A stretch of 64,000 bases of DNA from NCBI RefSeq assembly GCF_000092045.1, contig NC_007761.1, positions 561,001 to 625,000 on the forward strand. The letters run 5' to 3'. The DNA is from Rhizobium etli CFN 42 (lineage in GTDB: Bacteria > Pseudomonadota > Alphaproteobacteria > Rhizobiales > Rhizobiaceae). Made by a program: the position numbers and the translations under genes. The notes beneath the pieces are model-generated. The model saw nothing but the letters and a program-made list of their open reading frames with translations, ran no database searches and was not told where the DNA came from. The first letter of the stretch is position 1. Each line of letters opens with the position of its first letter. Below, piece by piece: positions 3,467 through 58,410 of the stretch.

Positions 3467-5977
3467 GTGGACCAGATCGACTCCGAAGCCAGCACCCTGC
3501 TGCCTGCCGCCTTTACCCGCTGGTTTGCGGAAAAGGGCTGGCGCCCGCGCGCCCATCAGCTGGAACTGCTTGCCCGCGCCGAGAGTGGCGAAAGCACGCT
3601 GCTGATTGCGCCGACCGGCGCCGGCAAGACGCTTGCCGGTTTTCTGCCGTCGCTGACCGATCTCACCCGCCGCGGCAGAATCCCGCCCGGTTCCGCCTTC
3701 ACCGGCATTCACACGCTCTATGTCTCGCCGTTGAAGGCGCTGGCGATCGATATCGAGCGTAACCTGATGAAGCCTGTTGTGGAGATGGGCCTGCCGGTCA
3801 CCGTCGAAAACCGCACCGGCGATACGCCGAACGCCAAACGCCAGCGCCAAAAACTCAATCCGCCGGATATTCTACTGACGACGCCCGAGCAGGTCGCCCT
3901 GCTTCTCGCCAACCGCGAGGCCGAGCGTTTCTTCAAGGATCTGAAATATGTCGTGCTCGACGAGCTGCATTCGCTCGTTACCTCCAAGCGCGGCCATATG
4001 CTGTCGCTCGGCCTTGCCCGCTTGCGCCGCGTTGCCCCAAACCTCAAGACCATCGGCCTGTCGGCGACGGTCGCCGAGCCGATGGATCTGCAGAGATGGC
4101 TGGTCCCCCAGCAGGAGGGCAGGGAGCATCACGCCGGCCTCGTCGTCGTCGAAGGCGGCGCCAAACCTGACATTTCGATACTGTCGACCGAAGAGCGCAT
4201 TCCCTGGGCCGGCCATTCCGCCAAATATGCCATTCCCGACGTCTACAAACAGCTGCTCGACCACCAGACGACGCTGCTCTTCGTCAATACCCGCAGCCAG
4301 GCCGAAATGCTGTTCCAGGAGCTCTGGACGATCAATGACGACAATCTGCCGATTGCCCTCCACCACGGCTCGCTCGATGTCGCCCAGCGCCGCAAGGTCG
4401 AGGCGGCGATGGCCGAAAACAGGCTGCGTGCCGTCGTCGCCACCTCGACGCTCGATCTCGGCATCGACTGGGGCGATGTCGATCTGGTCATCCATGTCGG
4501 GGCGCCGAAGGGCGCATCCCGTCTTGCTCAGCGCATCGGCCGCGCCAATCACCGAATGGACGAGCCGTCGAAGGCGATCCTCGTGCCGGCCAACCGCTTC
4601 GAGGTGATGGAGTGCCAGGCAGCGCTCGACGCCAATTATATCGGCGCACAGGACACGCCGCCCGTCGGCCGCGGCGCGCTCGACGTGCTCGCCCAGCACG
4701 TGCTCGGCATGGCCTGCGCCGAACCCTTCGACATGCTGGAACTCTATGACGAAGTCACCAGTGCCTCACCTTATGCCGATCTCAGCTGGGAGACTTTCGA
4801 GCGCGTCGTCGATTTCGTCGCGACCGGCGGTTATGCGCTCAGGACCTACGAACGTTACGCCCGCATCCGCAAGACCAAGGAAGGCCGCTGGCGCGTCTCC
4901 AATCCTGCTGTCGCCCAGCAATATCGCCTCAACCTCGGCACCATCGTCGAAAGCCCGATGCTGAACATCCGCATGGTCAAGCGCGGCGAGGGCGGCCGGA
5001 TTGGCCGCGGCGGCGCGACGCTGGGTAAGGTCGAGGAATATTTCCTCGAGCAATTGTCGCCAGGCGACACCTTCATCTTCTCCGGCAAGGTGCTGCGTTT
5101 CGAGGGCATCCGCGAAAACGAATGCCTGGCGTCGCAGGCCTTTTCGCTCGATCCGAAGATCCCCGCCTATAATGGCGGCAAGTTTCCGCTGTCGACCTAT
5201 CTCGCCGAGCAGGTGCGGGCGATGATCGCCGATCCCGACCGCTGGCGCCATTTGCCGGATCAGGTGCGCGACTGGCTGTCGCTGCAGACGGACAAGTCGA
5301 TGCTGCCGAAGCGTGACGAGTTCCTGATCGAAACCTTCCCGCGCGGCAGCCGCTTCTATATGGTCGCCTATCCCTTCGAGGGCCGTCTCGCCCATCAGAC
5401 GCTCGGCATGCTGCTCACCCGCCGGCTGGACCGGGCGGGCGCCAAGCCGCTCGGCTTCGTCGCCACCGATTACTCTCTCGCCATCTGGGGGCTGGAAGAT
5501 ATGGGCCTAATGATCGGCAACGGCCGGCTCAGCCTTTCCGACCTGTTCGACGCGGACATGCTGGGCGACGATCTCGAAGCCTGGCTCAACGAATCCTTCC
5601 TGCTGAAGCGCACCTTCCGCAATTGCGCCGTGATTGCAGGCTTGATCGAGCGCCGCCATCCCGGCAAGGAAAAGAGCGGCCGTCAGATCACCGTCTCCGC
5701 CGATCTGATCTATGACGTGCTCCGCAGCCATGAGCCGGATCACATCCTCTTGCAGGCGACGCGGCAGGATGCGGCGACCGGACTTTTGGATATAAGCCGA
5801 CTTGGCGATATGCTGATGCGAATCAGGGGCCACATCACCCATCGCCCGCTCGATCATATTTCCCCGCTCGCCGTGCCGGTGATGCTGGAGATCGGACGGG
5901 AGGCGGTGCCCGGCGAGGCCCACGATGCGCTATTGGCCGAGGCGGCGGACGATCTGATCGCCGAAGCTCTGGCATAA
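3467..5977 (+). CDS. Ligase-associated DEXH-box DNA helicase (Lhr-like)
   Basis: An 836-residue superfamily 2 helicase. Walker A is APTGAGKT (K54), the Walker B/DEXH box is DELH at 165-168, motif III is SAT at 199-201 and motif VI is QRIGRANHR at 355-363. The long C-terminal region matches Lhr-type helicases that in proteobacteria are encoded beside the PdeM nuclease and, often, an ATP-dependent DNA ligase. The start is GTG at 3467 with only a weak CAGGG upstream; no better start precedes the helicase core. It overlaps pdeM by one base (TAATG), so translation is coupled. No ligase gene is in the window. Confidence 0.92.
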   Translation: MDQIDSEASTLLPAAFTRWFAEKGWRPRAHQLELLARAESGESTLLIAPTGAGKTLAGFLPSLTDLTRRGRIPPGSAFTGIHTLYVSPLKALAIDIERNLMKPVVEMGLPVTVENRTGDTPNAKRQRQKLNPPDILLTTPEQVALLLANREAERFFKDLKYVVLDELHSLVTSKRGHMLSLGLARLRRVAPNLKTIGLSATVAEPMDLQRWLVPQQEGREHHAGLVVVEGGAKPDISILSTEERIPWAGHSAKYAIPDVYKQLLDHQTTLLFVNTRSQAEMLFQELWTINDDNLPIALHHGSLDVAQRRKVEAAMAENRLRAVVATSTLDLGIDWGDVDLVIHVGAPKGASRLAQRIGRANHRMDEPSKAILVPANRFEVMECQAALDANYIGAQDTPPVGRGALDVLAQHVLGMACAEPFDMLELYDEVTSASPYADLSWETFERVVDFVATGGYALRTYERYARIRKTKEGRWRVSNPAVAQQYRLNLGTIVESPMLNIRMVKRGEGGRIGRGGATLGKVEEYFLEQLSPGDTFIFSGKVLRFEGIRENECLASQAFSLDPKIPAYNGGKFPLSTYLAEQVRAMIADPDRWRHLPDQVRDWLSLQTDKSMLPKRDEFLIETFPRGSRFYMVAYPFEGRLAHQTLGMLLTRRLDRAGAKPLGFVATDYSLAIWGLEDMGLMIGNGRLSLSDLFDADMLGDDLEAWLNESFLLKRTFRNCAVIAGLIERRHPGKEKSGRQITVSADLIYDVLRSHEPDHILLQATRQDAATGLLDISRLGDMLMRIRGHITHRPLDHISPLAVPVMLEIGREAVPGEAHDALLAEAADDLIAEALA

Positions 5978-6726
5978 TGACTGGGAAAAACACGACTTTG
6001 ATGAACCGCCTGGCGCTGGCGCGCGACATTTCCGGACTGGCCGCGATACCGGCCATCGAGACATCGGTGAACGGTATTGCCGCCGTCTGCGATCCGCTCG
6101 GCGCCCTCTATCTGCCGGATGCCGGCCTGCTCGTCGTCTCCGACCTGCATCTGGAAAAGGGCGCGGCCTTCGCCCGCCGCGGCATGATGCTGCCGCCCTA
6201 TGATACGCTGGCGACCTTGACCGTGCTGGCCGCCGTCATCTCGCGCTATGATCCGAAGCTCGTCGTCTCGCTCGGCGACAATTTCCACGATCGCATCGGC
6301 TCCGCGCATCTGCCGGAAAACTTTCGCGCGCTGATCGTCGCCATGGCGCGCGGCCGCGAATGGATCTGGGTCAACGGCAATCACGACCCCGACGGCGTCG
6401 TCGATCTGCCCGGCGCTTGCACCGACGAGATGCATTATGCCGGCCTGACCTTCCGCCACGAGCCGAAAAACGGGCTGCAGAGCGGCGAAATCGCCGGCCA
6501 CCTGCACCCGTCGGCGACCGTGCGCCGGCGCGAGAGATCGATCCGCCGCCCTTGTTTCGCCACCGACGGCGCCCGCCTCATCATGCCGGCCTTCGGGGTG
6601 ATGAGCGGCGGTCTCGACCTCGGCCATCGGGCGATGAAGGGCCTGTTCGACACCTCGTCGCTGGTGGCGCATCTGCTGGGGCGCGATCGGATCTATTCGG
6701 TCAGGTACGGGAATTTGCGGGGGTAG
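5977..6726 (+). CDS. pdeM: Ligase-associated DNA damage response endonuclease PdeM
   Basis: A 249-residue calcineurin-like metallophosphoesterase with all metal-binding blocks: D56-L-H58, G-D101-N-F-H-D, G-N135-H136-D, H161 and G-H175-L-H177. It is the usual partner of the Lhr-like helicase in a DNA-repair gene pair. The ATG at 5977 overlaps the helicase stop; an alternative in-frame ATG at 6001 would remove eight residues. DNA nuclease activity is known for the family, while the substrate here is inferred. Confidence 0.9.
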   Translation: MTGKNTTLMNRLALARDISGLAAIPAIETSVNGIAAVCDPLGALYLPDAGLLVVSDLHLEKGAAFARRGMMLPPYDTLATLTVLAAVISRYDPKLVVSLGDNFHDRIGSAHLPENFRALIVAMARGREWIWVNGNHDPDGVVDLPGACTDEMHYAGLTFRHEPKNGLQSGEIAGHLHPSATVRRRERSIRRPCFATDGARLIMPAFGVMSGGLDLGHRAMKGLFDTSSLVAHLLGRDRIYSVRYGNLRG

Positions 6727-6761
6727 GGTCTGTTATCCCTGATGGGGTATGCCGTGTGAGA

Positions 6762-6936
6762 CCCCCCTCTGCCCTGCCGGGCATCTCCCCCACAAGGAGG
6801 GAGATCGGCAAAAGGTTGGCTCGCCAGTCCCTCTCTAACGTCGTGCGGAACACCAGTTCGTCATTGTTTGGGGGAGCTATCGCGCCCAGCCGATCTCCCC
6901 ACCCGTGGGGGAGATGCCCGGCAGGGCAGAGGGGGG
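6762..6936. repeat. Long inverted-repeat intergenic element
   Basis: Two near-perfect 48-base arms (6762-6809 and 6889-6936) face each other across about 79 bases between two convergent genes. The outer arm CCCCCTCTGCCCTGCCGGGC recurs as a compact palindrome at 21163-21194. It carries no ORF and is best read as a rhizobial intergenic palindrome that can also end transcription from both sides. Confidence 0.75.
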
Positions 6937-49473: not shown

Positions 49474-50091
49474 TCACTGGAATGCGTAGTCGGCGGGCAC
49501 CATCTGGGTTTCGATGGCGAAGGTGACCTCATCCCCGAGCTCGGGAATTGCGAAGTCCAGCCCCCATTCGCTCCGCTTGATGCTGCCCCTCGCCGAGAAG
49601 CCGATTTTCGGGACGCCCATCATCGGGTGCTTGGCCATCGAGCCGTTGAAGGTGACATCGAGCGTTGCCGGATGCGTCTCGCCGCGAAAGGTCAGCAAGC
49701 CTTCGACGGTGCCGGTTTTCTCGCCCGTGATCTGGATGGCCCTGGACACGAAGGTGATCGGCTTGGCGGCGAGGAACGTCTTGTCGCCGCCGATCTCGGC
49801 ATCGAAGTCGACCTTGTCAGGCCAGGGGTAGTCGGTCCGGACCGAGAGCGGATCGATCGTGACCGACAGGGCGGAGGTCTCCGGCCGTTCCGGCTTCCAG
49901 TCGAGCCGCGCGTCGACCCTGGTGAAGCGCGCGGTGTAGTGCGACAGGCCGGAGTGGTTGAAGGACCAGTTGAAGCTCGAATGCGAGGGATCGGTCTTGT
50001 AGGCCCCGCCGGGCCCCGGGTCGTCGGCGGCGGCGAAAGCGGTGATCGCGCTCAGGGCGAGAGCGAACAGAAATGCAGGGATGCGCAGCAT
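49474..50091 (-). CDS. YceI family periplasmic protein
   Basis: A 205-residue exported protein: signal peptide (MLRIPAFLFALALSAITAFA, cut near residue 21) then a YceI lipocalin-like barrel: YKTDPSHSSFNWSFNHSGLS, TARFTRVDARLDW, and late DVTFNGSMAKHPMMGVPKIG and RSEWGLDFAIPELGDEV. Family members bind isoprenoids or other amphipathic ligands in the periplasm. AAGGA is 8 bases upstream of the ATG at 50091. It lies 35 bases after nat and may be co-transcribed. Confidence 0.9.
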   Translation of the reverse strand: MLRIPAFLFALALSAITAFAAADDPGPGGAYKTDPSHSSFNWSFNHSGLSHYTARFTRVDARLDWKPERPETSALSVTIDPLSVRTDYPWPDKVDFDAEIGGDKTFLAAKPITFVSRAIQITGEKTGTVEGLLTFRGETHPATLDVTFNGSMAKHPMMGVPKIGFSARGSIKRSEWGLDFAIPELGDEVTFAIETQMVPADYAFQ

Positions 50092-50126
50092 GGATATGTC
50101 CTTGAGTCTGGAATGATGAGGCTGGC

Positions 50127-50973
50127 TCAGGCCGCCTTGTCGCGGGTGAGGGACTGGAGGCGCTTCCAGACTTTTGCCGCCTGGGGAATGTCGAGGTCGA
50201 ACACGGTTTCGAACGTGTCGGCGAGATGATCCGCGCTGGTGATGCGCTGCTCGCTGAGGCTGTTTGCGGTTACGCGGCGCAGGCAGTCGTTCTGCAGCGC
50301 GACATAGCCGTCTGCCGTGTGTCGCAGGACGGCGAGCGCATTGGTGAAGGGGGAGGCGGGATCCTGCATCAGCCAGCCATGGGTTGCGACCATGGCGGCC
50401 TCGTCGCTGTGGTCTGGCTTGAAATCGAAGCTCTTGGCAATGCCATGCATGTGATTGTTGAAACGCAGCCAGCCGCCATCCGCCGGCATGATCGAGAAGT
50501 CGAAGCCGCGCTGGCTGATCGGCCCGACGGCCAGCGGCACCGGCTCGATGATGGCATCCGCCACGCCGACTTCGGCAAGATAGGAACGGTCGAGATCGAC
50601 GCGCAGGGTGAGGTGATTGCCAATGGCGATATCGCCGAGCTTTTCCCGTTGCACGCCGCCGCAAAGGCGGGTCACGCGAAAGCCGAGCGCAGCTAGCGCG
50701 GCGCCGAAGAGGCCGTTCATCTCGTAGCACCAGCCACCGCGCCGTCCCTCGACCATCTTGGCGAAGGCCGCGGCCGGCGTGATCGCGGAGGGCCAACCCA
50801 TGAAGGCATCGAGCGCTTCAAAGGTGAAGGTCATGAGATGGGCGCGGTGCAGCTGCGACAGGGTGTCGATACTGACACGCAGCGGCTGCTCGAGCCCGGA
50901 TCCGGGCCAGATAGGCATCGAGCTGCGTTGTTGTCAGGGTCATTGCGTTTTCGTTCGAAGGCACGTGTGTCAT
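50127..50973 (-). pseudogene. nat: Arylamine N-acetyltransferase with a 5' frameshift
   Basis: The body (from 50918 down) is a clear NAT: QPLRVSIDTLSQLHRAHLMT, the active Cys in RRGGWCYEMNG, and HLTL with the catalytic His. The normal N-terminus lies in another frame. From ATG 50973, with GGAG 8 bases upstream, the sequence reads MTHVPSNENAMTLTTTQLDA then YLARI, and needs a one-base shift within CCCGGATCCGGG (50895-50906) to continue into GLEQPL. Without it the first frame stops soon after. The usual catalytic Asp (DVGFG) is Glu here (EVGVAD). A shortened product from ATG 50918 is possible, but that start has no ribosome site. Sequencing error is the alternative. Confidence 0.7.
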
Positions 50974-51030
50974 CCTTCGGTCTCCTTTCGATGGACCGTT
51001 GTCCGGGTTCCGGTTGTCTGTTTGGGTGGT

Positions 51031-51492
51031 TCAGGCGACCTTGCGGTCGCCCTCGGGCAGGATGGTCAGGCCGAAGCCCCTGGCGACCGAGGCGATCTGC
51101 TCGGGCGTTTCGGGCCTGGAGAGCTCGACGATCGGAAAGAAACTTTCGAACCCGCCCGGTGTGACGACGACCATGAGGCGGCCCTCCACCTTCCCCACAT
51201 TGCGGAAACGGTGTGGCAAACCGCGCGGCAATGCGATGCAGCCGCCTTCCGCAAGTTCGACATAGTCGCCGGCGCACCAGAAGCCGAAGCGGCCGGCAAG
51301 GACGCGGAAGAACTCGTCCTCGCGCTCGTGCACATGCAGAGGCGGACCTTCGCCGGCCGGCACGAAGGCCTCGAACATGCCGAGAGAACCGCCGGTACTG
51401 GCGGCCATCATGCGGATGACATGCCTGCCGAATGCCATTGCCAGCGTCCCACACCCGGACGGCGAGACCGCAGCTTGGGTGAATGTCATCAT
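51031..51492 (-). CDS. Cupin domain protein
   Basis: A 153-residue single-domain cupin. Motif 1 is PPLHVHEREDEFFRVLAGRF (His, His and Glu metal ligands) and motif 2 includes GLPHRFRNVG with the last His. Such proteins are dioxygenases, isomerases or sugar-binding proteins; the substrate is unknown. AAGGAG is upstream of the ATG pair at 51492/51489. First gene of a minus-strand set with nat and yceI, divergent from a LysR regulator that probably controls it. Confidence 0.85.
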   Translation of the reverse strand: MMTFTQAAVSPSGCGTLAMAFGRHVIRMMAASTGGSLGMFEAFVPAGEGPPLHVHEREDEFFRVLAGRFGFWCAGDYVELAEGGCIALPRGLPHRFRNVGKVEGRLMVVVTPGGFESFFPIVELSRPETPEQIASVARGFGLTILPEGDRKVA

Positions 51493-51591
51493 GTCGGGTC
51501 TCCTTTGCTTGAGTACACCCCACCGATTACTTTGCGTCCTCTCCCATGATAAGAGGGATAAACCGACATCATTGTATGGATAATTGCACTC

Positions 51592-52485
51592 ATGAAAACG
51601 CTTGATCCGCTTGACGGGATTGCCGCATTTCTAACGGTTTCCACGCATCTGAGCTTCACGAAGGCGGCCGAGGAACTGAGCATGGCGCGGGCGACGGTCG
51701 GCGCCCAAGTCAGACAACTCGAGGATCGCCTCGGCATCCGCCTCTTTCAAAGATCGACGCGCAAGGTCGCCCTGACGGAGGCCGGGGCCGCTTACAGGCA
51801 GGCGCTTTCGGGAATCCTGCCGCAGATAAGAGAGGCCGAACGGGCCGCAATCTCGTTTCAGAAGGAAGCTGTCGGGCGATTGCGGGTGTCGGCGCCCCCC
51901 GACCTCGGGCACCTCGTGATCGTGCCGGCAGTTTCGGAGTTCCTCAAACTCAACCCGGCTGTGTCAGTCGAACTCGACCTGTCACATCGGCCGGTGAACT
52001 TGGTCGAGGATGGCTTCGACCTTGCAATTCGAGGCCGCCTTGAGGTCGATATCAATCTCATCACCCGACAACTGGCGACATCGTCAATCGTGATTTCCGC
52101 TTCACCGGCCTATATTGCCGAACACGGGGTGCCAATGACGCCGCATGACCTCGTTCACCACGCCTGCCTTCACTTCGCCGAACTAAGATGGGGGCGGATT
52201 TGGCCGTTCAGCAGGGACGGTGAGGAGTTTCGCATTCCCATCGTGCCCCGCCTGGAGCTTAATCATAGTCTTGGTCTTCGCGACGCCGCCGTGCTAGGAC
52301 TCGGCATAGTCCTTCTGCCCGACTTTGTCGTCGGGGAAGACCTCAGGCAGGGCCGGTTGGTCCGTCTTCTCCCCGATTGGGATATCAGCACGATACAGTT
52401 ACAGGCAGTCTATCCGGCCAATCGCCATATCGCGGTAAAGGTCCGACGCTTCGTCTCGTTCCTGGCAGGCAAACTGCGACCATAG
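51592..52485 (+). CDS. LysR family transcriptional regulator
   Basis: A 297-residue LysR protein: N-terminal helix-turn-helix (LSFTKAAEELSMARATVGAQ, then VRQLEDRLGIRLFQRSTR) and a substrate-binding domain with LGLGIVLLPDFVV near residue 235. The subgroup resembles CrgA/DsdC-like LysR proteins with the RPVNLVEDGFDLAIRG segment. Divergent from the cupin-nat-yceI set, 99 bases away, the usual layout for LysR control of a neighbour; the inducer is unknown. The ribosome site is weak. Confidence 0.9.
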   Translation: MKTLDPLDGIAAFLTVSTHLSFTKAAEELSMARATVGAQVRQLEDRLGIRLFQRSTRKVALTEAGAAYRQALSGILPQIREAERAAISFQKEAVGRLRVSAPPDLGHLVIVPAVSEFLKLNPAVSVELDLSHRPVNLVEDGFDLAIRGRLEVDINLITRQLATSSIVISASPAYIAEHGVPMTPHDLVHHACLHFAELRWGRIWPFSRDGEEFRIPIVPRLELNHSLGLRDAAVLGLGIVLLPDFVVGEDLRQGRLVRLLPDWDISTIQLQAVYPANRHIAVKVRRFVSFLAGKLRP

Positions 52486-52768
52486 ACGAAGTCCCAATTC
52501 GGATCGGAAAACGCGGGCGGCGAAGGTTTGATCGGGGCTGCGGCAGCAGGTGGACAGACGATCAAGGTCAGTCATGAGCCTTGTGCGCCGATTGGGCGCT
52601 GGAGGCGGAAGGGCCGCTGGTCCTTGAAGCCGTCGCAGGTGAATACCCATAAGCTGAGTGCGGCGAAATCCTCCAGTGGCGTCTGCGCCAACGAGCACCG
52701 CCACTCTCCTATGAACAAAACCGTATCGTCGTGCGAAGGCCGATCACCAATTCGTGTTCGCCATGCCT

Positions 52769-52794
52769 GTAACAAGCGGCATCGTCGGCTCGAA
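52769..52794 (+). promoter_or_regulatory. ECF sigma-F-type promoter candidate for the bufferin operon
   Basis: GTAACA (52769-52774), a 16-base spacer and CGAA (52791-52794) match the GTAACC-N16-CGAA promoter reported for Caulobacter SigF, which drives bufferin-type operons there (from memory). It lies 56 bases before the precursor start. The rest of the 365-base gap 52486-52850 shows no convincing gene; short antisense frames there have no family resemblance. Confidence 0.55.
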
Positions 52795-52850
52795 AGAGGG
52801 ATTACGCGGCCGATGACCGGTACGCGGATCTTTGCAAGAGGAGACCATCC

Positions 52851-53138
52851 ATGAACCGTTCCACTCTCACCCTCGCCCTCGCAGGCTCGCTCGCCACTGC
52901 GATTTCATCCGCTGCCTTCGCCGCGCCTCTGCCGGCGGAGAAAATGGTGGGCAACGAGAAATGCTATGGCATCGCCCTCAAGGGCCACAATGATTGTGCC
53001 GCCGGTGCCGGCACGACCTGCGCCGGTACATCGACGATGGATTATCAGGGGAACGCCTGGAAGGCCGTCCCCGCTGGCACCTGCACCAGCATGAATGTCA
53101 ACGGGCACATGGGTAAGCTCGAGCCGACCAAAGGCTGA
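52851..53138 (+). CDS. bufA: Bufferin-type RiPP precursor (DUF2282, BufA1-like)
   Basis: A 95-residue DUF2282 protein. Residues 1-25 are a signal peptide ([16 protein letters not shown]). The mature part has four Cys (38, 49, 57, 78) in the family context [21 protein letters not shown] and PAGTCTS, with [13 protein letters not shown] between. Bufferins are exported copper-buffering peptides whose core Cys are oxidised by a DUF692/MNIO enzyme; that role is from the family and not shown here. AGGAG precedes the ATG at 52851. First gene of a four-gene operon, followed by an attenuator-like hairpin. Confidence 0.88.
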
Positions 53139-53147
53139 CAACGAAAG

Positions 53148-53179
53148 CGGAGGTCCGATGCCCGGGCCTCCGTGCTTTT
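53148..53179 (+). terminator. Intra-operon attenuator between bufA and bufB
   Basis: CGGAGGTCC (53148-53156) pairs with GGGCCTCCG (53164-53172), 9 bp with one G-U, loop 7 bases, then TTTT at 53176-53179. It lies 9 bases after the precursor stop. Partial termination here would give more precursor than enzyme mRNA. Confidence 0.7.
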
Positions 53180-53201
53180 CTGCTAAACCTGGAGAACCGC
53201 G

Positions 53202-54089
53202 ATGACCGCTTCAGCAACCCGACCCGTCCCCCTGCCTGCGCGGGCCGGCCTCGGCCTTAAAGCCGAGCACTACCAGACTATTCTGGCCGATCTGCCGGAT
53301 GTCGGCTTCTTTGAGATCCATGCCGAGAACTACATGGGCGCAGGTGGGCCGCCGCATCGCTATCTCCAAGCCATCACGGAGCACTATCCGCTTTCGCTGC
53401 ACGGCGTCGGTCTATCGATCGGCGCGGCGCGCGGGCTCGACAAGGCGCATCTGACGCGGCTTCGCAGCTTGCTCGACCGCTATCGGCCGCAGAGTTTTTC
53501 CGAACATCTGGCCTGGTCGACCCATGACACGGGATTTCTCAACGATTTGTTGCCGCTACCCTACACGGAAGAAACGCTGGCGCGCGTCGTCGACCATGTC
53601 GATGAAACGCAACAGGCGCTCGGGCGGCAACTGCTGCTGGAAAACCCTTCCACCTATATGCTGTTCGCCGAGAGTACGATCGATGAAGTGGATTTTCTGG
53701 CGACGATCGCGCAGCGGACGGGCTGTGGCCTTCTGCTCGACGTCAACAATGTGATGGTCTCGGCGGTAAACCACCGGCTCGATGCCGCCACCTATATAGA
53801 TCGTTTTCCGGTCGAGTTCGTCGGCGAGATTCACCTTGCGGGTTACGACGAAACCGTCGACCCCGCCGGCGATCGGCTGCTGATTGACGCGCACGCGACG
53901 GCGGTGAAGAGCGACGTATTGGCGCTCTACAAACATACCCTGGCGCGCACCGGCTCACTTCCGACGCTGATTGAATGGGACAATAATGTTCCGGATTTCG
54001 CCACATTGTATTCAGAGGCCAAACGCGTGGATGCAATGCTCGCCGCCGAAACCTTTCGCCGCGGCGGGCGCCGGATCCGGGCGGCGTGA
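53202..54089 (+). CDS. bufB: MNIO enzyme (DUF692), bufferin-modifying BufB
   Basis: A 295-residue DUF692 TIM-barrel protein of the multinuclear non-heme iron oxidase class. Likely metal ligands are conserved: H40 and E42 ([10 protein letters not shown]), H67 ([10 protein letters not shown]), E101-H102 (EHLAW), E147 (LLLENPSTY), D180 and N183 (LLLDVNNV), H211 (GEIHLAG), D229 and H231 (IDAHAT), E258 (LIEWDNN). In described systems it converts precursor Cys to thiooxazole-type rings. TGGAG precedes the ATG at 53202. It overlaps the next gene by four bases. Confidence 0.92.
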
Positions 54090-54868
54090 CGATGGATTTC
54101 GCAGCCCGCCAAGCCGCCTTCGCCGATGCCTTGCTGCATCCCGACCGGCCGGTTCCGGACGGCGTCATCAACGCACGCGGCGAGCCCGACGCGGCACGGT
54201 TTGCCGTATACCGCAACAATGTGTTCGTCGGGCTGACAAAGGCGCTGGCGCAACGCTTTCCGGTGACTGAGAGGCTCGTCGGCTCGGAGTTCTTTGCAGC
54301 CATGGCGCGGGCCTACGTCCAGGATCACAAGCCGGCCTCGCCGCTGATCATGGAATATGGCGACGATTTCCCCGACTTCGTCGCAGCTTTTGAGCCTGCA
54401 GGCACGCTTGTCTATCTGCCCGATGTCGCCCGGCTCGAGGCCGCCTGGACGGAGGCTTACCACGCCGCCGACAGCGCGCCTCTCGATCTTGCGGCATTCG
54501 GAGCCGTGGCGCCCGAGATGCTTTCGGACTTGCGGCTCCTCCCACACCCCTCGGCACGCCTGATCCTGTCGAATTTTCCGGTTGGTTCGATCTGGAGCGC
54601 ACATCAAGAGGCGGTGGTTTCGCCGGTCTCCGACTGGGGTGGGCAAGCGGTGCTGGTCGTGCGACCGGAGATGTCGGTCAATGTTCATGTCCTGCCGCCG
54701 CGGGACGCCGTTTTTGCCGCCGCCTTGTTCAACGCCGCCACTCTCGGCGAGGCGGCAGAGGCGGCATTTGCGGCTGCCCCGGAATTCGATTTCGGAACGG
54801 CGCTGGTCGGCCTTGCCGGTATCGGCGCGTTTAGAGCCTTTCAACAGTATAAAGGAAACTCCACATGA
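54086..54868 (+). CDS. bufC: DUF2063 partner protein (BufC)
   Basis: A 260-residue protein with an N-terminal DUF2063 domain: [15 protein letters not shown], then [20 protein letters not shown] and [20 protein letters not shown]. It is the usual partner of DUF692 enzymes and probably presents the precursor leader. The GTG at 54086 gives a GTGA overlap with bufB; ATG 54092 is an alternative two codons in. It overlaps the DoxX gene by ATGA, so bufB-C-D are translationally coupled. No metal-site motif is seen. Confidence 0.88.
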
Positions 54869-55362
54869 AAACCGAAGTGGCCCCTTCGCACGGCTTTGGC
54901 GCTGCCGCTGCCTCCCTCGTCACTCGCGTTGAAGCGCTGCTCGCCTCCGTTCCCAGGTCGCTGCCGCTGCTGGCACTGCGTTTTGCGCTGGCTATTCCCT
55001 TCTTCAAGTCGGGGCTGACGAAATGGGACGGCTTCCTGACGCTTTCATCGGGCGCAAGATATCTATTCGAGCAGGAGTTCAAGCTTCATATCTTCGGCAG
55101 CGCAGTCGCCTACCCCTTTCCTCTGACGATGGCGACGGCCGCCGGAATCGGAGAACTGGTTCTGCCAATTCTGCTGATCCTCGGCCTGGCCACACGCTTC
55201 GCTGCCCTCGGTCTGCTGCTGATGACGGCGATTATCCAGCTCACCATCCCGGATGGCTGGGCAAATTTTCATTTGCCCTGGGCGGCAATGGCGCTGGCGT
55301 TGGTCGTGTTCGGCGGGGGCAAGATTGCGGTTGATCCGTTTGTCTTGCAGCGCCGTAAATGA
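54865..55362 (+). CDS. bufD: DoxX family membrane protein (BufD)
   Basis: A 165-residue protein with four membrane helices and DoxX landmarks (LALRFALAIPFFKSGLTKWD, then LPILLILGLATRFAALGLLL, ending GGGKIAVDPFVL). DoxX proteins are often the last gene of bufferin operons; their role there is not established and could be quinone-linked redox supply. AAGGAAA is upstream. The 188 bases after the stop hold no gene I can support. Confidence 0.88.
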   Translation: MKTEVAPSHGFGAAAASLVTRVEALLASVPRSLPLLALRFALAIPFFKSGLTKWDGFLTLSSGARYLFEQEFKLHIFGSAVAYPFPLTMATAAGIGELVLPILLILGLATRFAALGLLLMTAIIQLTIPDGWANFHLPWAAMALALVVFGGGKIAVDPFVLQRRK

Positions 55363-55550
55363 CGCGGCGGCCAGACGCCTCATCGCCGCGAGGAGGCGCT
55401 CAGCTGGCATGAGGGCCTGCGCCGGACGAAGGGGCTGGCGTAGAACCGTCCGGCGTCATGGCGTCAGCGGCTGCCGCCGCAATGGGACGGTCATGAGATG
55501 TCTCCTGCACGAAAGTGCCGGCAGCCTAGCGCGCATCACCCGGAAAGGCT

Positions 55551-55868
55551 TTAGCCGGCCTCGTCAAGGGACCTTGCCGCTTCAAGCAGAAGCTGCTTCA
55601 TTTTCTCGCGAACCGTCTGAGCGCTGATCGCGACGTCGGCATATTGCAGATCGCTGAGAATCTTTCTGAAGACGTTCTCATCTCCTGACTCCAGCAACTC
55701 GGCGGAAATGACTTCGTCGAAATAGACGTCGAAGTCGGTTCTTCCGATGAGCTCGGCCGCCCAGCGTGCCAGCAGCCGGTCACGCCTCGCCTTGATATGG
55801 AACGAACGCTCGAGCTTCACGATGTACTCTTTCTCGAGTGCTTCTTCACGCTCGTCGATGATGCCCAT
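55551..55868 (-). CDS. ATPase inhibitor subunit zeta (DUF1476)
   Basis: A 105-residue helical protein: MGIIDEREEALEKEYIVKLE, then KARRDRLLARWAAELIGRTD, EVISAELLESGDENVFRKIL and REKMKQLLLEAARSLDEAG, the pattern of the zeta subunit that inhibits F1-ATPase in Paracoccus and relatives. GGGAGG lies 7 bases before ATG 55868 (4 before ATG 55871, an equal alternative). Alphaproteobacteria usually carry a more canonical copy elsewhere, so this may be a second, divergent form. Confidence 0.85.
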   Translation of the reverse strand: MGIIDEREEALEKEYIVKLERSFHIKARRDRLLARWAAELIGRTDFDVYFDEVISAELLESGDENVFRKILSDLQYADVAISAQTVREKMKQLLLEAARSLDEAG

Positions 55869-56023
55869 CATCGATCCTCCCGCTGAATGGCCGTCAGTTG
55901 TTTGAATGCGTCGCATTCGCTGCGCAAGCAATCATTTGGAAACTGCCTGCACGAAGGCCTCTCGCACCATTTCACCACATAATTGGGTAAATCAAAAAAG
56001 TTAGAGCGGTTCTGCGCTTCCAC

Positions 56024-57280
56024 TCAAAACAAGAGGAGCGACCCCAGAGACAGAATGAGTGCGGGGACCATGACGACGGTTCCGAGTTTTAGAAACGTCC
56101 AGGCGCCGATATGCAGTCCTTCGCGGCGCAGGGCAGACAGCCACAAGATCGTCGCCAGCGACCCCGTCACCGACAGATTGGGTCCGAGATCGACGCCGAT
56201 CAGCACGGCGCCGGCGATCTTGTCGGAGACACCTGCGGCCTGCACCACGCTGCCGGCAAGCAGGCCGGCAGGAAGATTGTTCACGAGGTTGCAGATCACG
56301 CCGACGAGCAGGCCCGCCACGCCGATCGCCTGCGATTGCGAGGCCGAGGCAAGCGCAGCCAGCTGATCGGAGAGAATGTTCGTCAGCCCGGTATGATCGA
56401 GCGATTCGACGATGACGAACAGGCCGGCGACCAGCGGCAGAACGCTCCAGCTGATGCCCTTCATCGTCTCGGCCGGGCTTTGCCGCGTCAGCATCAGAAC
56501 GATCGCGGTGGTGATCGTGCCCGCAACAAAGGTCGGCACGCCGAGGTCGACATGCATGGCCGACGCCGTGATAAGAACGATGGCCGTCAGCAGGATTCCC
56601 CATCCCGCGAGGTGGGCGCTGCGGGAGAGGGGCGGTTGCTGCGTGTCGGCGGCAAGAGTGTCTTCTGCAAGGGCGCGGCGTTGCGTCCAGTAGAGGCAGA
56701 GGAACGTGGCGACGATCGAAATGATCGACGGCAGCATGAATGTCGACAGCCAGCGGGAGAGCGGCGGCATATCACCGCCGGCAAAGATCACGAGATTGGC
56801 CGGGTTGGAAATCGGCAGAACGAAGCTCGCAGCATTGGCGATGAAGGCGCAGATCAGCAGATAAGGCATCGGGTCTTTGACCCGCGCCGTCCGGCAGGCG
56901 GCATAGACGGCCGGCGTCAGCACCACGGCCGTCGCATCGTTGGAAAGAAAGACAGTGACAATCACGCCGACAAGATAGACGAGCACGAAGAGACGCCGGG
57001 GTGATCCTTGGGCGTACGCGATTGCAATGGCGGCGATCCAGTCGAACAGGCCTTCGCGCCGGGCAAGTTCGGAGAGCAGCATCATGCCGATCAGAAAGAG
57101 ATAAACGTCGCCGCCCTTGGCGACGCCCGCCAGGACATCATGGGGTCCGACGAGGCGAAAGGCGAGCAGGAGCAGGGCGCCGAAGACGGCCCAGATCGCT
57201 TCCGGCCACCGAAAGGGACGCACGACGACGCCCATCGCAGTGAGACCGGCGATCCCCCAGGTCATGGCATGTTCAGTCAT
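56024..57280 (-). CDS. ArsB/SLC13-type anion permease
   Basis: A 418-residue polytopic protein of the ArsB/NhaD superfamily: VTVFLSNDATAVVLTPAVYA and LPISNPANLVIFAGG in the first half and ICNLVNNLPAGLLAGS in the second, the repeated motifs of these carriers. Arsenite is the commonest annotation, but no arsR or arsC is beside it, so the substrate is open. I prefer the ATG at 57280 by family length; the frame runs to 57460 without similarity. The ribosome site is weak. The first 232 bases upstream are AT-richer with no clear operator. Confidence 0.82.
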   Translation of the reverse strand: MTEHAMTWGIAGLTAMGVVVRPFRWPEAIWAVFGALLLLAFRLVGPHDVLAGVAKGGDVYLFLIGMMLLSELARREGLFDWIAAIAIAYAQGSPRRLFVLVYLVGVIVTVFLSNDATAVVLTPAVYAACRTARVKDPMPYLLICAFIANAASFVLPISNPANLVIFAGGDMPPLSRWLSTFMLPSIISIVATFLCLYWTQRRALAEDTLAADTQQPPLSRSAHLAGWGILLTAIVLITASAMHVDLGVPTFVAGTITTAIVLMLTRQSPAETMKGISWSVLPLVAGLFVIVESLDHTGLTNILSDQLAALASASQSQAIGVAGLLVGVICNLVNNLPAGLLAGSVVQAAGVSDKIAGAVLIGVDLGPNLSVTGSLATILWLSALRREGLHIGAWTFLKLGTVVMVPALILSLGSLLLF

Positions 57281-57512
57281 TTGCAATCGCGTTCGGTTGG
57301 TGCGCGGCAGAACAGCCGCTTTGGTTGTTGCGAGAGTGTTTTGCCGTTCAAATACATGTTTGCTCAGGCACTGACAAATCCGTTTAGCTTGGAAAACTAA
57401 CAATTGCCGGAAACCAAAGCCCGAAATCAGCCGATCGGCTGCACATCCGTAACGGAACAATCACAGCTGGATCTGGTTTAACTCACACCCGTATCCCCAG
57501 GCGGAGATGACG

Positions 57513-57740
57513 ATGTGGGCAGTTCTGATTGGTGCCGCGCTCATAATCGGCGGCCTTCTTTTTCTCCTTCGGCCGACGCTTCGTCGAAAGCCGAGTGATC
57601 CCCACCTGATGCCGCAGGGCGGCGCCACGCTCGAACCGCGGCGCCAAGGCCTGAGGTTCCTCAGCTTGGCGCGGAACTGGCCGGCGATGGTTGTCATCGC
57701 GGTCGGCGCAATTCTTCTGGTTTTCGGGAGCTATTGGTGA
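57513..57740 (+). CDS. Small two-span membrane protein
   Basis: A 75-residue protein with a first membrane helix (MWAVLIGAALIIGGLLFLL), a basic loop (RPTLRRKPSDPH), and a second helix (AMVVIAVGAILLVFGSYW) at the very end. GGAG lies 6 bases before ATG 57513; an ATG at 57507 would overlap that site. It is convergent with the TetR gene. Not recognised. Confidence 0.6.
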   Translation: MWAVLIGAALIIGGLLFLLRPTLRRKPSDPHLMPQGGATLEPRRQGLRFLSLARNWPAMVVIAVGAILLVFGSYW

Positions 57741-57816
57741 CAGACAACGGTGTGAGCCACTCCGCACCGCTTCCCTTCCAACAAAATTCCCAGTTTGCCG
57801 CCAGTATATCGGAAGC

Positions 57817-58410
57817 TCACGCGGACGTATTGAGAAGGCCGGCAGCCAAGGCGTCGAAGGCCTCGACAGCTCTTGGCAACAGATCCTGCGGCCGGTCAGT
57901 CGCCGCGATCCAGAGGGCGGCATTGAGCGCAGCGCCGTTGAGCAGCCGGGCGGCTGCTTCCGCGTCGACCGGCTTGAGGGCGCCCCGGACGATAAGGCGC
58001 TCGATTGTCTGCCTGGTTGCCTGAAGACAACTGCTCTGGCTCGGCCATTGTGAAGGATCACCCAGCACGGCAGGCCCATCGAGCAGGACGATGCGCTGGA
58101 CCTCCGGATCGAGCGCCATTTCGATATAAGCCGCGCCCTCGGCGAGAAGGCCCTGCCAATCATCACCCGCGCGGGCGCCGATCTCCTTTGCACGCGACGC
58201 CATTTCCGTGTCGATCTGATCGACAACGGCTGCAAGCAGCCCGCGCTTGTCTCCGAAGTTGTGATAGAGCGCTCCCCGCGTCAGGCCGACTTCGGCAGTC
58301 AGTTCGTCCATCGAAGCGGCGGCATATCCTTTCTCGGCAAAGGCCTTTCGGGCGGCCGCGATTAGCTTCACACGATTTTCCTCCATCGTCTCGCTGCGCC
58401 TTCTTACCAT
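57817..58410 (-). CDS. TetR family transcriptional regulator
   Basis: A 197-residue TetR protein. DNA-binding domain: AARKAFAEKGYAAASMDELT, then EVGLTRGALYHNFGDKRGLL with the recognition helix. The C-terminal domain matches the TetR_C_33-type group (LLDGPAVLGDPSQWP). GGAGGTGAG precedes the ATG at 58410. Two palindromes sharing ATACG/CGTAT lie in the divergent region with the RidA-like gene, its probable target. Confidence 0.9.
   Translation of the reverse strand: MVRRRSETMEENRVKLIAAARKAFAEKGYAAASMDELTAEVGLTRGALYHNFGDKRGLLAAVVDQIDTEMASRAKEIGARAGDDWQGLLAEGAAYIEMALDPEVQRIVLLDGPAVLGDPSQWPSQSSCLQATRQTIERLIVRGALKPVDAEAAARLLNGAALNAALWIAATDRPQDLLPRAVEAFDALAAGLLNTSA

Follow-up and report, generated by a model that had tools for sequence, protein, structure and literature searches.

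A putative Buf1 bufferin operon of Rhizobium etli CFN 42 with an ECF16-type promoter and a conserved upstream inverted repeat

The stretch of DNA analyzed here (the window) comprises 64,000 nucleotides of the Rhizobium etli CFN 42 contig NC_007761.1 (positions 561,001 to 625,000, forward strand); positions below are counted from its first letter. At 52851-55362 it carries four open reading frames on the plus strand: bufA, bufB, bufC, and doxX, in this order. An earlier note, made from the letters alone, had taken them for a bufferin-type operon with DUF2282, DUF692, DUF2063, and DoxX genes, four cysteines in the precursor, and four-base overlaps among the last three genes. Open reading frame coordinates and Pfam scores confirm both the order and the overlaps. 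The bufferin precursor gene bufA (52851-53138, plus strand) encodes 95 residues with cysteines at positions 38, 49, 57, and 78, and its product scores 86.6 bits against the DUF2282 model PF10048 (Pfam cut-off 22.4). After a gap of 63 bases comes bufB (53202-54089, plus strand), encoding an MNIO maturase of 295 residues (PF05114, MbnB_TglH_ChrH; 350 bits, cut-off 25). The gene for the DUF2063 partner protein, bufC (54086-54868, plus strand; 260 residues, GTG start; PF09836, 99.1 bits, cut-off 27.2), overlaps bufB by four bases, and so does doxX (54865-55362, plus strand) with bufC; the product of doxX is a DoxX-family protein of 165 residues (PF07681, 59.3 bits, cut-off 23.6).

BufB also passes the NCBIfam "bufferin maturase" model NF050167 (MNIO_BufB) with 380.8 bits against a cut-off of 310, and BufA matched none of the NCBIfam models. 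The four BufA columns hold cysteine in all 117 BufA domains aligned in a survey of the order, and the first 24 residues of BufA look, by eye, like a Sec signal peptide, with a basic N-terminus, a hydrophobic core, and AFA followed by A. Residues 15-276 of BufB align with the solved MNIO structure 3bww, and 28 of its H, D, E, or N residues are conserved in at least 97% of 63 BufB rows, including H67, H102, E147, D180, N183, H211, D229, H231, E258, and D260; several of these conserved positions we take to be iron ligands. For BufC, a PDB sequence search at E 0.01 gave no relative. Genome-wide there is a single match each for DUF692, DUF2282, and NrsF; with one DUF692 and one DUF2282 match, this is the sole bufferin operon of its kind in the genome. 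The family scores, the gene order, and the invariant cysteines thus agree with the earlier assignment, and the sequence-level criteria tested support reading the operon as a complete, ordinary Buf1 bufferin cluster.

Two related types were considered and ruled out. The oxazolin or captophorin type (HvfABCX) shares MNIO and DUF2063 proteins with the R. etli operon, and its peptides are copper-linked and contain 5-thiooxazole (PMC13097082). In contrast to that type, R. etli BufA has no EGKCG repeats, and BufB, BufC, and DoxX stay under the NCBIfam cut-offs for HvfB (242.8 vs 360 bits), HvfC (51.7 vs 142 bits), and HvfX (50 vs 80 bits). The methanobactin type fails on the MbnB model (61.6 bits, cut-off 325).

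Upstream of bufA, an exact match to the ECF16-type promoter TGTAACA-N16-CGAA lies at 52768-52794 on the plus strand and ends 56 bases before the gene; the operon is thus preceded by the GTAAC-N16-CGAA-type promoter that marks the ECF16 regulon. GTAAC and CGAA are invariant and their spacing is constant in 15/15 aligned upstream regions of the clade, while the spacer drifts; six of the 21 loci compared (L081-L084, L086, and L087), with BufB less than 60% identical, were omitted from this alignment. The layout equals that of the mapped RpoE7 promoter of Sinorhizobium meliloti SMb20530. Motif counts speak against the call: the bare motif is not enriched in the window, where it matches 3 times with at most one mismatch (1.38 expected; at least 3 in 16 of 100 shuffles), and the genome holds 8 matches to TGTAACN{16,17}CGAA vs 20 for a backward control. 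Two others of the 8 are found at the genome's ECF16 sigma gene: one precedes it, and the other is divergent from it. We therefore rejected the bare motif as proof, and the promoter call rests on conservation.

Just upstream of this promoter lies an inverted repeat, TCACCAATTCGTGT (52744-52757, plus strand), a putative operator with the consensus TCACG-N4-CGTGA, whose CAC starts 24 nucleotides upstream of GTAAC. The block CAC-N-AAYTYGTG is present in all 15 clade upstream regions, starting 24-25 nucleotides upstream of GTAAC, and when CACGAATTCGTGTT was searched at up to one mismatch, the site before bufA was its sole match in the genome. The mapped S. meliloti promoter carries TCACGAAAGCGTGT at the matching 24 nucleotides. 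In the survey of the order, the repeat was found at up to one mismatch within 420 nucleotides upstream of 48 of 118 BufA copies, 11 of them exact; tandem copies share upstream DNA, hence these 48 copies represent 46 of 110 loci. Twelve control repeats, including ones with other spacers, gave 0-6 of 118, and the block-shuffle mean for the same 420 nucleotides was 1.25. The four-nucleotide spacer matters, as spacers of 2, 3, 5, and 6 gave 0-4 of 118. Within 220 nucleotides, the repeat precedes bufA at 44 of the 110 loci vs 2-4 for six controls. It also accompanies the promoter: the 45 nucleotides upstream of 35 ECF16-like boxes hold it at up to one mismatch in 23 cases and at up to two in 27, vs 0-1 (at up to one mismatch) for ten control repeats, and in these 27 its center lies 11-12 (13 cases), 18-23 (13 cases), or 28 (one case) nucleotides from GTAAC. 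The 110 loci were taken roughly in list order with rows skipped, a non-random sample uncorrected for relatedness, and the consensus was refined on part of this survey, so that neither the one-mismatch counts nor the counts at ECF16 boxes are fully independent tests. Beyond the order, the repeat was found in 10 of 43 BufA copies from other alphaproteobacterial orders (controls 0-3), once six loci that the order set already contained, and upstream regions shorter than 100 nucleotides, had been dropped, and in none of the seven loci that made up the sample of other classes.

Promoter and repeat were also combined in one pattern, TCACNAANTNGTG-N{10,15}-GTAAC-N{16,17}-CGAA, which was set from the 15 clade loci and one more (L086) before it was scanned over the contigs of a one-genome-per-species collection. 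The scan returned 88 stretches with 89 sites. BufA follows within 420 nucleotides at 80 of the 89, a count in which related genomes are not independent; these sites span Rhizobium, Neorhizobium, Mesorhizobium, Bradyrhizobium, Ancylobacter, Devosia, and others. Of the remaining nine, three belong to Bradyrhizobium, one to Mesorhizobium metallidurans, and one to an Aestuariivirga metagenome-assembled genome; three (from Bacteroidia, Marinobacter, and Erythrobacter) look like chance, and one, in Amycolatopsis, has just 34 nucleotides of downstream sequence.

The conservation of this repeat suggests that a second DNA-binding factor probably acts there. Several observations weigh against this conclusion. 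The window's own copy has two mismatches to the consensus, 70 of the 118 surveyed BufA copies have no repeat at up to one mismatch, and 5 of the 48 matches lie more than 300 nucleotides upstream. The repeat is missing at all 30 R. tropici-like loci (a CGTA-type ECF16 box is present at 24 of them), and none was seen by eye at Shinella, Nitrobacter, and Rhizobium sp. T136 plasmid loci. No regulator linked to the repeat was recognized in the 113 loci compared (17 clade, 88 pattern, and 8 plasmid loci), a comparison of frames of at least 90 residues, made without a Pfam run, in which many other groups were shadow frames or not identified. The recognized regulators in groups present in at least 4 of the 113 loci were SigF (16), NrsF (13), LysR (8), and two TetR groups (4 each).

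A few genes other than bufA lie under the two-part promoter. At three Bradyrhizobium loci (L108, L145, and L162), a DUF1223 gene, identified by Pfam for L108 and alike by eye in the others, starts 29-30 nucleotides downstream; its product is secreted and has a CxxC motif. In M. metallidurans (L113), the promoter is followed by a DoxX-like frame (detected by tblastn; no Pfam match) and then by a molybdopterin oxidoreductase gene, and in the Aestuariivirga genome (L110, minus strand, 950) the genes that follow it encode a CDP-alcohol transferase and a hydrolase, and a SigF gene lies upstream. Among bufA upstream regions without a recognized ECF16 box (L207, L208, L213, L220, L236, L259, L262, L285, and others), there is often, as judged by eye, a TTGATTTYC-like motif with TTGA about 11 base pairs later, near TCAC-N6-GTGA repeats, perhaps a second promoter class.

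Which sigma factor could read the promoter? Linked sigma/NrsF genes occur in Buf1 clusters but are not required; none is present at the R. etli locus, and a SigF-NrsF pair adjoins the operon in 4 of the 21 loci (L075, L077, L080, and L087). An RpoE7-type sigma was not found in this genome, where the only ECF16 sigma/NrsF pair found, with the only NrsF, is a distant one on another contig (C7). The C7 sigma is 90.7-97.3% identical to the sigmas of the eight nearest other genomes of the genus. S. meliloti RpoE7 is 59-66% identical to its 12 nearest sigmas found, including buf-linked ones, and about 35% identical to sigmas of the R. etli type. With a buf-linked sigma as the query on the R. etli genome, the C7 sigma is the best match (37%, 1e-28; next 2e-9). 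NrsF was found in 147 of 148 genomes of the genus, 42 of which have no DUF2282 match, and each of 12 genomes without a sigma pair around the operon (G000, G003, G004, G007, G008, G018, G036, G038, G052, G078, G104, and G107) has exactly one NrsF match. The NrsF encoded on C7 has cysteines at 131 and 181, the two positions studied in Caulobacter NrsF. In this lineage no RpoE7-type pair was found and the promoter is kept; the sole ECF16 candidate is the C7 sigma, which may serve the bufA promoter, although its identity of about 35-37% to buf-linked sigmas speaks against this.

The DUF2282 gene is present in 105 of 148 genomes of the genus, and in 147 of 297, 75 of 193, and 51 of 199 genomes drawn from the order, class, and phylum, respectively. 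The statement in the earlier note that such operons are described mainly in Caulobacter and other proteobacteria thus needs correction: they are common in rhizobia, and one, in S. meliloti, is in print. A search of related rhizobia for the four-gene order, which the note had proposed, found it identical in 21 of 21 loci, namely the one studied here and 20 chosen from DUF2282-bearing genomes. The nearest named locus among those fetched is on a Rhizobium esperanzae CNPSo 668 contig (L131; BufA 100%, BufB 99%, BufC 96%, and DoxX 98% identical). In many of the R. tropici-like genomes (L009-L038, named by guess), DUF2282 genes stand in tandem at a distance of about 315 bases, and an NrsF gene is linked to them. 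On the Rhizobium sp. T136 plasmid pT136c (L186), a hypothetical gene (5880-6866) separates the DUF692 and DUF2063 genes of a bufferin operon that has sigma and DUF1109 genes of its own downstream. BufB homologs are also borne by enterobacterial plasmids (Escherichia 73, Klebsiella 18, and Salmonella 8 of 355 plasmid records); the best Escherichia coli plasmid homolog among the matches listed is 53.1% identical.

The transcript may begin with a hairpin, CGCGGCCGATGACCGGTACGCG (52805-52826, plus strand), predicted in the 5' untranslated region: 97.0% of cells are paired in 21 sequences, and one pair shows two-sided changes (6 cells), a weak covariation support. These 21 come from a set of 24 untranslated regions, of which the other three match included ones exactly in the stretch used. 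A ribosome-binding-like AGAGGAG (52837-52843, plus strand), invariant in the 15 aligned clade upstream regions, precedes bufA. A second, terminator-like hairpin with a T-rich tail (53147-53173, plus strand; z = -3.03) occupies the gap between bufA and bufB and may cause the enzyme genes to be transcribed less than the precursor gene. A similar element occurs in 12 of 15 clade loci and in 15 of 81 distinct intergenic regions overall, and is largely confined to the close clade. An Rfam scan of 50000-58000 found no family at the gathering threshold. The flanking genes recognized by Pfam encode LysR, cupin, YceI, arylamine N-acetyltransferase, ATPase inhibitor zeta, and ArsB/CitMHS-like transporter proteins, and NhaA was recognized by eye only. 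That the surrounding genes are not standard partners, as the earlier note held, is true for the adjacent ones, but a frequent partner, the ECF16 sigma/NrsF pair, resides on another contig and its promoter type lies before bufA.

A close counterpart in the literature is S. meliloti 1021 SMb20530-SMb20527, published in 2018 as the main target of the ECF16 sigma RpoE7: overproduced RpoE7 gave log fold changes of 6.8, 6.2, 5.1, and 4.7, and the SMb20530 promoter was derived from mapped starts (PMC6180224). The two systems share the operon type, the -35 and -10 elements, their spacing, and a similar repeat at 24 nucleotides; they differ in that rpoE7-ecfR7 is divergent from the operon in S. meliloti, whereas R. 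etli has only the distant pair on C7. The two counterpart operons of Caulobacter are targets of SigF, which binds GTAACC-N16-CGAA (PMC3511200). In described Buf1 bufferins, which have a copper function, the two central cysteines are modified and the outer two are disulfide-bonded (PMC12452194; PMC13097082). The R. etli operon resembles Buf1 of Caulobacter and Cupriavidus in its four-cysteine precursor family, MNIO, DUF2063, and DoxX proteins and gene order, and that of Caulobacter in its ECF16 promoter as well (PMC12452194; PMC3511200); unlike these, its locus has no sigma/anti-sigma genes, and it has a conserved inverted repeat upstream of the promoter, a feature that the available portions of the Caulobacter and Cupriavidus accounts do not mention. 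A search of one literature library on bufferins or DUF2282 in rhizobia and on the repeat returned no title or abstract describing the operator, which is not proof that it is unpublished.

By analogy with the described members, BufA would be made with a Sec signal peptide, BufB together with BufC would oxidize the central cysteines 49 and 57 to 5-thiooxazoles, the outer cysteines 38 and 78 would form a disulfide, and the exported peptide would bind periplasmic copper, with DoxX as an accessory membrane protein. Transcription would most likely be started by an ECF16 sigma of the SigF/RpoE7 type at TGTAACA-N16-CGAA, and a second DNA-binding factor would act at the inverted repeat. We consider this explanation as a whole highly probable.

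A first alternative keeps the operon and its peptide but sees their main job in protection from oxidants, sulfur compounds, or metals other than copper. On the one hand, earlier work reports that ECF16 sigmas of Caulobacter and Bradyrhizobium respond to chromate, cadmium, or hydrogen peroxide (H2O2) and that a DoxX homolog elsewhere protects against oxidative or sulfur stress, and a few other genes under the two-part promoter (DUF1223 and molybdopterin oxidoreductase) look redox-related. On the other hand, described bufferins chelate copper and aid growth under copper stress (PMC12452194), and a fusion of the sigma-dependent S. meliloti promoter was not raised by H2O2, cadmium, or chromate (PMC6180224), a result that also weighs against the explanation that we prefer. 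A mainly noncopper role seems unlikely.

We find it improbable that, instead of serving as the operator of a factor, the repeat extends the ECF16 promoter or forms a structural element in the DNA that RNA polymerase itself reads. The preferred positions of its center relative to GTAAC (11-12 or 18-23 nucleotides in 26 of 27 cases) and the failure to recognize a linked regulator in 113 loci are what such an element would lead one to expect. But the promoters of the sigma genes themselves lack the repeat in both species read (R. etli and S. meliloti), as do all 30 R. tropici-like bufA loci, most of them with an ECF16 box; the repeat is present, in exact form, upstream of bufA at three loci where an ECF16 box was not found (L220, L259, and L262); and its four-nucleotide spacer matters.

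The operon might instead have lost its cognate sigma and now be silent, as the missing RpoE7-type sigma could suggest; yet promoter box, repeat, and coding sequences are kept in 11 relatives in which the operon is likewise unlinked (BufA 87-100% and BufB 79-99% identical), and we regard silence as very doubtful. Least credible is control by the adjacent LysR-type gene, a candidate that we rejected: it shares the operon's strand and stops 365 bases before it, but its ortholog is a neighbor of the operon at just 4 of 21 loci, its group occurs in 8 of the 113 loci compared, and it is missing from two loci (L069 and L076) that keep the cupin, N-acetyltransferase, and YceI genes and still conserve promoter and repeat.

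The kind of operon is already known, and R. etli adds one more rhizobium to the family. What is useful here is the finding on the promoter, and further attention is due to the conserved operator and to the absence of a cognate sigma. We propose, with belief and doubt evenly balanced, that TCACG-N4-CGTGA beside ECF16 promoters is bound by a transcription factor so far unconnected with bufferins, which co-controls bufferin operons across Hyphomicrobiales, along with some DUF1223, molybdoenzyme, and hydrolase genes, and that the dedicated RpoE7-type sigma was lost in the R. etli lineage, where the distant ECF16 sigma found throughout the genus, encoded on the other contig, took over its promoter. 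The operator conserved before bufferin genes in many Hyphomicrobiales offers a DNA bait for the missing regulator, and the two-part promoter also yields a short list of other genes that may be under a shared control pattern. If the proposal is true, bufferin synthesis would require, as in an AND-gate, both a periplasmic redox signal, received through sigma/NrsF, and a second, perhaps metal, signal.

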